Source: Noviherbaspirillum massiliense JC206 (GTDB taxonomy: Bacteria; Pseudomonadota; Gammaproteobacteria; Burkholderiales; Burkholderiaceae_D). From it: a DNA stretch of 64,000 bases. The translations under genes were made by a program, and so were the position numbers. Each line of letters starts with the position of its first letter. The stretch's first letter is position 1. The stretch is taken from NCBI RefSeq assembly GCF_000312045.1, contig NZ_HE978634.1:1730098-1794097 (forward strand), read 5' to 3'. The notes under the pieces were generated by a model. The model was not told where the DNA came from and ran no database searches. It saw only the letters and a list, made by a program, of their open reading frames with translations. Shown piece after piece: positions 56,881 to 59,295 of the stretch.

Positions 56881-57981
56881 ATGATCAACCGGACCGACCT
56901 CGGCGGCACCCGGCCTCCGGCGTCGGTGCAAGCGCCCGCGCGCGTGGCATCGGCCACGGACACGGGACAGGAAGCCTTCCGTCGGCTGTCCCGGATTGCC
57001 ATCGGCAGCGAACTGCAGGCGAAAGTGCTTTCCCTGCTGGAGGATGGAACCCATCTGGTGCGACTGGCCGACACGACGGCGCGCATGGCGCTTCCCTCCG
57101 GTATCCGTGCCGGCGACACGCTGAACATGACGCTGCTGGCCCGGCAGCCCCGTCCCCTCTTCCTGCTGGCAGGCGGCGCTGAAAGCGCAACTGCCTCGCT
57201 CAGCTCGGCTGGCCGCCTCATCGATGCCCTGCTCCACGCCATTCCCGAGGGAGAGTCTGCGGCGCTCCGCGCGCAATCACCATTGCTGCCGGCAGCGCAG
57301 TTACCCGATCCGAAACAGCTGGCGTCGACCCTGCAACAGGCGCTTGACGTCAGCGGCCTGTTCTATGAATCCCATCTGCAGGAATGGCTGGCAGGCAGGC
57401 GCTCGCGGGAGGAACTGCTGCGCGAACCACAGGCGCAGTTCGGCAAGGACGCGGGACAGGAAGGCGCTGCAGAGGCAGACGATTTGCAGGGATTGCTGAG
57501 GCAGCTCGCCGAGATCACCCGGGCCGCGCAGGTCAAGACCGAAGCCGCAGCCAAGACAGGCATCGATGCACTCGCTGTCACCCGGCCCCAGGACGCACAA
57601 CTCCAGATGGACTCGGAACAGGCACGCATGGTCGGGCTTCAACTCAATACCCTGGAACAGCGGCAGTTGCGCTGGCAGGGCGAACTCTGGCCCGGTCAGC
57701 CCTTCGATTGGGAAGTCGGGGAAGATCCGCCGGACGGAAACAAAGGCGATGCTGCGCCGTCCTCATGGACCAGCACGATGCGGCTTGAACTCCCGCAGCT
57801 TGGTCCGGTGTCGGCCTCGCTGCGGCTCACGGGCGACCGGGTGCTGATACAGATAGACGCGGCGAGCGATGCCACGGCAGCCGCAATGCGCACGCATGGG
57901 AAGGAACTTGGCGATGCGCTGGATGCGGCCGGCTCGAAGCTCGACGGATTGACGATCAGAGGAAGCCATGAACCCGGATAA
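56881..57981 (+). CDS. FliK-like flagellar hook-length control protein
   Basis: A 366-residue protein with a variable Ala/Gln-rich N-terminal part and, after about residue 300, a FliK C-terminal-type domain (MRLELPQLGPVSASLRLTGD, VLIQIDAASDATAAAMRTHG). It may be a second, divergent FliK rather than the main hook ruler, which normally sits with hook-basal body genes. It overlaps the flhB-like gene by 14 bp. Confidence 0.75.
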   Translation: MINRTDLGGTRPPASVQAPARVASATDTGQEAFRRLSRIAIGSELQAKVLSLLEDGTHLVRLADTTARMALPSGIRAGDTLNMTLLARQPRPLFLLAGGAESATASLSSAGRLIDALLHAIPEGESAALRAQSPLLPAAQLPDPKQLASTLQQALDVSGLFYESHLQEWLAGRRSREELLREPQAQFGKDAGQEGAAEADDLQGLLRQLAEITRAAQVKTEAAAKTGIDALAVTRPQDAQLQMDSEQARMVGLQLNTLEQRQLRWQGELWPGQPFDWEVGEDPPDGNKGDAAPSSWTSTMRLELPQLGPVSASLRLTGDRVLIQIDAASDATAAAMRTHGKELGDALDAAGSKLDGLTIRGSHEPG

Positions 57982-58348
57982 GCGCTCGCGCAGTGCGGTG
58001 GCGCTGGCTTACCAGACCGGGGACGTGGCGCCGAAGGTAGTGGCGCGCGGACGCGGCCTGGTGGCCGAGCAGATCATCGAGCGCGCGCGCGAGCACGGGA
58101 TATTCGTGCATGAATCGAAGGAACTGGTTGCTCTGCTGATGCAGGTGGACCTCGACCGGCATATTCCGCCCGCGCTGTACCGCGCGGTGGCGGAACTGCT
58201 GGCCTGGCTCTACCATCTAGAGCGGATCGAGGGCCAATACAAGGGTGGCGCTGCCCCGCTTCGGGATGCAGCGCAAGGCGCGGCGCGCGGGACAGGGTGG
58301 CCACCCGCCCAAGCGCCGCAACGTGGCGATCCGCCCGAAGAGGGGTAG
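57968..58348 (+). CDS. FlhB-like C-terminal domain protein (EscU/YscU/FlhB family), altered 3' end
   Basis: A 126-residue soluble protein resembling the cytoplasmic switch domain of FlhB without membrane helices: SAVALAYQTGDVAPKVVARG, then ARGLVAEQIIERAREHGIFV-type segments and IPPALYRAVAELLAWLYHL. The NPTH autocleavage motif is absent, as usual in this stand-alone group. From residue 84 onward the coding sequence runs into the inverted-repeat element at 58219, so the last 43 residues (Gly/Pro/Arg-rich) are element-encoded and probably not native. Confidence 0.85.
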   Translation: MNPDKRSRSAVALAYQTGDVAPKVVARGRGLVAEQIIERAREHGIFVHESKELVALLMQVDLDRHIPPALYRAVAELLAWLYHLERIEGQYKGGAAPLRDAAQGAARGTGWPPAQAPQRGDPPEEG

Positions 58349-58450
58349 CCCTGCGAGTGAGATCAAGGGCCGGCGATTGCGGCGTTGCGCGGCTTGCACT
58401 CCCCTGCCCTTGACCTCACGACGCCCTTGTATTGGCCCTCGATCCGCTCT
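58219..58450. mobile_element. 232-bp element with perfect 27-bp terminal inverted repeats and two nested hairpins
   Basis: The ends, 58219-58245 and 58424-58450, are exact inverted copies over 27 bp, extending to 29 bp on the plus strand with one G-U pair. Inside lie two further stems: CCCC-g-CTTCGGG (58254-58265) with CCCGAAG-a-GGGG (58334-58345), and 58357-58370 with 58406-58419 (14 bp, one mismatch). No transposase is encoded, and no clear target duplication is seen. It looks like a MITE or structured RNA element; it supplies the end of the flhB-like gene and the upstream region of ycgR. Confidence 0.75.
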
Positions 58451-58530
58451 GGAACCTGCCCAGAAGGCGGGCAACGCGGTATCATACAGCCCCGACGGCA
58501 GCCGGCAGCCATATCAGACAGCAGGGAATG

Positions 58531-59295
58531 ATGGAATTCAATAGCAATTTGGAATCGGAGGATCTCAGCCAGTACGAGGTGCGTTCGCGCCGCGAAATCG
58601 TGGCGCTGCTGCGAGCCATCCAGGAACGCAAGCAGCTGGTGACGATGCTGATCGACGGCGGCCCGGAAGCGATCGTGACGTCCATCCTCGACGTGGACGA
58701 AGCCAGCGACATGGTCATCATCGACCAGGCGCCCAATCCTGCCATGAACCAGCGCCTTGTCAGCAGCAGCGATTCCTCCCTCGAGACCAGTCTCGACAAT
58801 ATCCGCATCCTGTCCTTCGCCTCCGGCATCAAGCCCTGCCTGTACGACGGCCTGCCCGCCCTGCGCTTCGCCATCCCGGGGAGCATGATCCGCCTGCAGC
58901 GGCGCGAACATTACCGCGTCGCCACGCCGGTGACCAACCCGCTGCGCTGCACGTTCGAGCTGAAGGACGCAGCCGGCAAGCCCGTAGGTCGTGTGGCCCT
59001 GCCCCTGCACAACATCAGCGGCGGCGGCATTGCCGTCATCGACGAGAAGAAGCAGCTCGACAGTACCGTGGGCCGGGTCTACAAGGATTGCAAGATAGAA
59101 ATGCCGGGCGCCAGCCCGGTGGTGGCGACGCTCGAAATCCGCAGTTCCGTCGATCTGTCCCTCTCCAACGGCAAGGCGGTGCGCCGCCTCGGCTGCATGT
59201 TCGTCGGACTGTCGGCGCCGATGCTGGCGGCGGTGCAGCGCTACATTACGAAGCTCGAACGGGAACGCAACGCCAGAGCAACCGGTCTGGGTTGA
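58531..59295 (+). CDS. ycgR: Flagellar brake protein YcgR (PilZ domain)
   Basis: A 254-residue c-di-GMP receptor that slows the flagellar motor. The N-terminal YcgR domain covers about residues 15-110; the PilZ domain follows, with the ligand motifs QRREHYRVATP and HNISGGGIAVID (RxxxR and (D/N)xSxxG). ATGs at 58528 and 58531 are both possible; CAGGGA is better spaced for the second. Its promoter region includes the inverted-repeat element. Confidence 0.93.
   Translation: MEFNSNLESEDLSQYEVRSRREIVALLRAIQERKQLVTMLIDGGPEAIVTSILDVDEASDMVIIDQAPNPAMNQRLVSSSDSSLETSLDNIRILSFASGIKPCLYDGLPALRFAIPGSMIRLQRREHYRVATPVTNPLRCTFELKDAAGKPVGRVALPLHNISGGGIAVIDEKKQLDSTVGRVYKDCKIEMPGASPVVATLEIRSSVDLSLSNGKAVRRLGCMFVGLSAPMLAAVQRYITKLERERNARATGLG

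Follow-up and report, generated by a model that had tools for sequence, protein, structure and literature searches.

MITEs are usually regarded as decayed insertion sequences (ISs), and little weight is given to their interior. The NEMIS/Correia elements of Neisseria are small mobile palindromes that have a TA target and can sit in transcripts. In the literature, NEMIS is classed as a MITE (PMC3733652), REPs are given a length of 20–40 bp (PMC3733652, PMC2817692), and QMITE2 of Coxiella is presented as a MITE that has terminal inverted repeats of 23–29 bp and whose transcript is predicted to fold very stably (PMC10969869). In the window analysed here (the whole stretch of 64,000 nt from Noviherbaspirillum massiliense JC206, contig NZ_HE978634.1), a palindromic element lies in the flagellar operon between an flhB-like gene and ycgR. 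We consider it likely that this element belongs, in a somewhat truncated form, to a widespread non-autonomous MITE-like family, on which IS5-family transposases would act in trans and whose fold would be kept as DNA.

The insertion between the flhB-like gene and ycgR

The features of the locus, with the basis for each in brackets, are as follows.

57968–58348, plus strand: flhB-like gene with the FlhB C-terminal domain PF01312, residues 85–126 being element-encoded (ORF list, Pfam, orthologues)
58218–58219, no strand: left TA of the target duplication, part of a CTAG (comparison with element-free orthologues)
58220–58249, plus strand: left outer arm, 30 nt (inverted repeat; arms of relatives are about 30 nt)
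58250–58348, plus strand: hairpin A, which holds the conserved core, TGCAGCGCAAGGCG from 58267 (covariance model match, relatives)
58349–58357, plus strand: CCCnnnGGG junction motif in the imperfect form CCCTGCGAG (motif in 62 of 65 relatives)
58357–58419, plus strand: hairpin B, about 35–40 nt shorter than in full-length relatives (fold, alignment)
58420–58449, plus strand: right outer arm (fold, inverted repeat)
58450–58451, no strand: right TA of the target duplication, now TG (sequence, element-free orthologues)
58452–58490, plus strand: remnant of the native flhB-like tail, reading EPAQKAGNAVSYS (similar to HLEAAQRGTNEVS in locus L228)
58528–59295, plus strand: ycgR, with PilZN and PilZ domains (Pfam)

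The original prediction had described a 232-bp element closed by a perfect 27-bp terminal inverted repeat. The repeat is present as described (58219–58245 and 58424–58450) and reaches 35 nt at 91% identity; the 232-bp limits hold for that repeat, the element proper being better placed from GAG to CTC (58220–58449, 230 nt), flanked by TA at 58218–58219 and by a changed TA, now TG, at 58450–58451. Two inner hairpins are found where they had been placed, at about 58250–58348 and 58357–58419 of the predicted fold, and the proposed folding into three arms recurs both in the predicted RNA fold, for which none of 200 shuffles was equally stable (z-score -9.29), and in the centroid of the plus-strand DNA fold. 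As DNA, the element reached z-scores of -9.30 (plus strand) and -9.79 (minus strand), hairpin A being split into smaller stems in both minimum-energy folds while the three-armed form is the plus-strand centroid. Hairpin A was also matched by a covariance model (G000:C1:1788347-1788445, E 3.1e-15) that counts this very sequence among its 22. The flagellar-operon copy is a variant or decayed member of its family, yet the outermost 27 bp of its repeat remain free of mismatches. As had been claimed, it carries no transposase: there is none among the listed ORFs, and Pfam is blank for the element-encoded tail.

The flhB-like reading frame enters the element at codon 84 (CTA, 58217–58219) and stops inside it (58346–58348), resulting in a new tail of 43 residues from codon 84, 42 of them element-encoded. 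Since the PF01312 match spans residues 9–81, up to the last position of the profile, the domain is left whole and only the tail of the protein is new. The predicted replacement of the 3' end from codon 84 agrees with the tails of relatives, which differ and comprise 10–27 residues, and the element does lie just before ycgR, which starts at 58528. The flhB-like gene precedes ycgR in all 15 genus genomes (own included), and none of the 14 orthologous loci of the genus carries the element. The gap between the flhB and ycgR alignment ends is 65–92 nt in these 14 relatives versus 314 here, subject to small offsets (L223 is off by one residue where the alignments stop and by eight where they start; in L224 and L228 the start of ycgR is off by one residue). 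Past its 3' side, EPAQKAGNAVS can still be read in the window, similar to the tails HLEAAQRGTNEVS (L228) and HIEAGGPANDKVS (L229). Because this native tail is still readable past the element, the site before insertion most likely read CAT-CTA-GAA, with the element placed at CTAG. According to the original prediction, the element might also be a regulatory insertion governing ycgR expression; a scan of 58100–58600 found no sigma-70-like promoter and no terminator.

Of the identities offered in the original prediction, that of a MITE is supported by copies elsewhere, a CTAG/TA-type target, empty orthologous sites, and ends of relatives that are common to IS5-type elements. The element is short, transposase-free and bounded by terminal inverted repeats, its site is empty in 14 of 14 genus relatives, and its target duplication (TA/TG) is one base off. 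Finding no copies anywhere, together with the same flhB-like C terminus in relatives, had been named as the outcome that would speak against the prediction; copies were found elsewhere, and the relatives have other tails.

Distribution and geometry of the family

The search for further copies that had been proposed, run with the DNA sequence and with a covariance model, recovered relatives in the own genome and in other genomes. The DNA search detected them in 13 of 100 genomes (own included), and returned only the element itself and its own arms in the own genome. The hairpin A covariance model R1, built from 22 sequences with the flagellar-operon copy among them, had matches in 10 of the 15 genomes of the genus, in 77 of the 369 of the class and in 43 of the 398 of the phylum, each count including the own genome; the class and phylum scans used stricter filters, R1 E-values are rough, and R1 counts are not copy numbers, as both strands of one hairpin often match. 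A degenerate pattern scan of the named genome collection retrieved at least 120 stretches. Among the matches listed, these fall largely in Burkholderiales and other betaproteobacterial groups (genera Acidovorax, Undibacterium, Allofranklinella, Vandammella, Herbaspirillum and Gallionella among them), joined by a single Gammaproteobacteria MAG and by two species of Myxococcota. Outer arms were present in 18 of 20 class and genus matches retrieved (none in L197 and L205), including shorter copies of 163–198 nt (L204, L209, L210, L214), and in 14 of 16 phylum matches retrieved, with spans of 235–275 bp (none in L300 and L310). None were found in four Sorangium loci (L090, L097, L178, L192).

A plasmid collection searched with the element gave no match, and the pattern scan of viral contigs gave zero. 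In Rfam, the sole match of the element at E values up to 1 was mir-H1, with 20.5 bits versus a gathering threshold of 97, and 20 relative loci had no match. Within the titles and abstract openings that full-text literature searches listed, and within Rfam, such a family is not described; the available passages of PMC10969869, PMC3733652 and PMC2267715 likewise hold no description of one.

In the own genome, R1 matched three places in all, namely the element and two diverged ones. The second copy (L196, G000:C1:2806444-2806542, minus strand) is diverged, has GAGGGTGTTATGAAG arms, and begins at a TAG that by eye seemingly closes an upstream frame (...INQLVR-stop); stop codons might be frequent landing sites of the element, via CTAG/TAG targets. 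The third (L197, G000:C1:53966-54061, plus strand) is decayed. A further place, L239 (G000:C1:173884), was rejected as an IS: a fuzzy search gave an 898-bp end pair there, and the ORFs are not transposase-like by eye. It reads, also by eye, like the lone right end of a three-armed element.

With the left arm sought 39–56 nt upstream of the core and armless cores uncounted, 105 elements were delimited, comprising 75 three-armed, 25 one-hairpin and 5 of neither kind. The three-armed elements are ordered as a 30-bp arm, hairpin A, a CCCnnnGGG mini-hairpin, hairpin B and an arm, about 267 bp overall, and 62 of the 75 measure 265–269 bp. When arms were allowed up to 350 nt away, they accompanied 89 of the 125 exact core matches of named loci, 24 of these 125 cores sitting less than 350 nt from a locus edge; the upstream end lies 47–51 nt from the core in 72 of the 89, and the downstream end at 150–165 nt in 52 and at 45–60 nt in 24. 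TA flanks the three-armed elements on both sides in 37 cases, on one side in 28 and on neither in 10, in an end placement that favoured TA, and the 10 were left out of later counts. Across the 65 elements flanked by TA on one or both sides, every arm position from 4 to 29 occurs with all four Watson-Crick pairs, and positions 21–31 pair in 77% of cases versus 33% for arms combined from different elements. CCCnnnGGG follows hairpin A in 62 of these 65, its loop bases being TNC in 40 and GNA in 15 (together 55 of 62).

An alignment of 32 sequences comprised the flagellar-operon copy and 31 of 35 representatives, L201, L208 and L213 having been dropped because the search motif had matched the opposite hairpin, and L016 omitted. 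Paired cells reached 92.0%, versus 62.4% in shuffled and at most 43.1% in slid versions, the structure being favoured over the slid versions through its derivation from the same alignment, and 72 of 85 pairs vary on both sides. Hairpins A and B have related bulged cores in opposite orientation, with invariant core columns. The family is defined by its geometry (30-bp arms, two long hairpins, a CCCnnnGGG mini-hairpin and about 267 bp) and not by end sequence.

L028 (347 nt) has an extra nested hairpin in hairpin A and L025 (346 nt) in hairpin B, by eye, which suggests elements within elements. L277 and L286 are TA-flanked 52-bp palindromes with little beyond two arms. G009, a genome of the same genus, has 62 matches of TAGAGCGGATTGC with many short derivatives; 7 of 13 retrieved matches pair at 156–161 nt and one at 95, and the coordinates also give a 46-nt pair. 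In L211, another large palindrome with ends CTAGTGTTCTGAGTTGGG and CAACTCAGGACACTAG adjoins the element on the upstream side and by eye looks like a different MITE family.

Shared ends, proposed mobilisation and the level of the fold

Recognisable TA-flanked ends were seen in 7 of 31 loci examined (30 with transposase similarity, plus L279). Compared by eye, element and IS ends agree at 16 of 16 positions for GAACTCATTTCATAAA, GAGCGTGTTATGAACT and GGGCGTGTCATCATTC, and at 14 of 16 for GAGCGCCTAA. Four end types fit element ends, L060 being the 14/16 one, and the ends of L052 fit none that we noticed. Unbroken IS repeats measure 13 (L279), 16 (L072), 17 (L046) and 20 bp (L049), the L060 repeat having one break in its first 17. 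In the seven elements set beside them, the arms agree throughout their first 30 positions or with one to three exceptions. A Pfam match to PF13340 (IS4/5 family) was obtained in L045 and L060 only; protein similarity is the basis for a transposase in L072 and L049, and the interior of L279 is masked. No autonomous IS was found among 30 retrieved of 79 matches to TAGAGCGGATTGC, an end related to that of the flagellar-operon copy. The L045 transposase piece had no match in the own genome, and the flagellar-operon copy may for this reason now be immobile; no transposition event was observed.

Similar interiors carry different ends. Of the 113 pairs whose interiors share 85% identity or more, 24, involving 10 elements, have arms that are no more than 55% alike (the background median of arm likeness is about 0.4), and some interiors 85–89% identical carry unrelated ends. 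Once the interiors reach 90% identity, arms are at least 67% alike in every one of the 55 pairs.

We propose that IS5-family transposases would recognise the outer 13–20 bp of the arms in trans, with insertion at CTAG/TA and duplication of the TA. The rest of the arm and the hairpins would be retained through folding of the DNA itself, as a single strand or cruciform, the reason being either that a protein requires the shape or that one arm of a palindrome is copied onto the other at replication. Similar interiors would acquire unrelated ends, end exchange being the presumed cause of the pattern above. In the own genome, one copy inserted close to where the flhB-like gene ends and gave it a new tail. 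More tentatively, and with a chance that we put well below even, the elements may form a class of mobile DNA that spans the phylum and has its folded shape as the defining feature (about 267 bp, three arms, fixed 30-bp arms and, at the junction, a C(GNA)G/C(TNC)G loop). Such an element would repeatedly change its ends to exploit different IS5-family transposases, and would move through the folded single strand or be copied from it.

A plain MITE, with arms kept alike solely by replication-coupled palindrome correction and a fold without selected function, is a serious possibility to which we give somewhat less than an even chance. Arms that vary in concert with few intermediates are what it would produce, and deletion derivatives of 46–52 bp and 95 bp exist; however, the narrow length range (265–269 bp in 62 of 75), the junction motif (62 of 65) and the invariant core are unexpected from arm correction alone.

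Whether DNA or RNA is the folded molecule bears on mismatches, as more G-U than A-C mismatches are expected in one strand if one RNA strand is under selection. In the outer arms of the 75 three-armed elements, the G-T to A-C ratio is 35:37. The 31 aligned three-armed sequences have 66 G-T and 62 A-C mismatches (p 0.79) with one fixed pair set aside, a core T-G pair present in 31 of 31 rows; counted in, it shifts the ratio to 97:62 (p 0.007). Hairpin A (25:13, p 0.07) and hairpin B (8:22, p 0.016) have opposite biases, which fit two inverted versions of one motif. Given these balanced mismatches, upkeep of the three-armed fold at the DNA level is moderately supported. The one-hairpin copies have 52 G-T versus 13 A-C mismatches (25 elements, p 1e-6, related copies counting repeatedly). 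A single lineage was ruled out as the source of this excess, which is 36:12 without the commonest lineage, and an RNA role is hinted at for these copies.

A structured or cis-regulatory RNA, its fold conserved as RNA and here acting on the flhB-ycgR transcript, is unlikely. The strong predicted RNA fold, the site between two flagellar genes, the one-hairpin excess and the fixed core T-G pair all speak for it, and TTC, TCC and TGC loops would read in RNA as UNCG tetraloops. Nonetheless, the three-armed mismatches are balanced, the element is missing from 14 of 14 orthologous loci, the loops are both TNC (40) and GNA (15) of 62, and there is no Rfam match. GNA triloops are unusually stable in DNA, as UNCG loops are in RNA, and the loop motif alone does not decide between the two. 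The structured RNA of the original prediction is thus less likely as the main nature of the element, and retains a footing in the G-T-rich one-hairpin copies. An ordinary lineage-specific flhB-like C-terminal coding sequence, palindromic by chance, would agree with the ORF staying open into the element until 58346–58348, but has next to no chance given orthologues with other short tails, the native tail persisting 3' of the element, and relatives of the sequence at other sites.

Comparison with known systems

A non-autonomous mobile element with a maintained DNA fold, our favoured reading, resembles IS5-derived MITEs in being transposase-free and under 500 bp, in its CTAG/TA-type target, and in having some ends identical over 16 nt. 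It differs from them in its arms (about 30 bp versus IS repeats of 13–20 bp) and in a stereotyped three-armed interior found across many end types. NEMIS/Correia elements are likewise small, mobile and palindromic, share the TA target and can sit in transcripts; to our knowledge, they have no two-hairpin interior or exchanged ends, and are set apart here by description only. REP/BIME sequences also consist of related imperfect palindromes in alternating orientation. REPs, which are associated with RAYT transposases, are palindromes of 20–40 bp tagged GTAG or CGTC; the present family has long arms and a TA-type target. QMITE2 of Coxiella is a MITE with similar terminal inverted repeats and a very stable predicted fold, but has direct repeats of 7–9 bp where the three-armed family has TA. 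Integron attC sites have RYYYAAC ... GTTRRRY core boxes; unlike in these, the core halves of the element seem by eye to be oppositely ordered.

Insertions of this kind can alter both the tail of a protein and the spacing of an operon, as the flhB-like gene here shows. The family also offers a natural system for asking how a gene-free parasite changes its mobilising enzymes, and whether DNA folding aids movement. In contrast to the usual view of MITEs, it is the interior and the geometry that are conserved in the three-armed family, and the ends, which a transposase would be expected to recognise, that vary.
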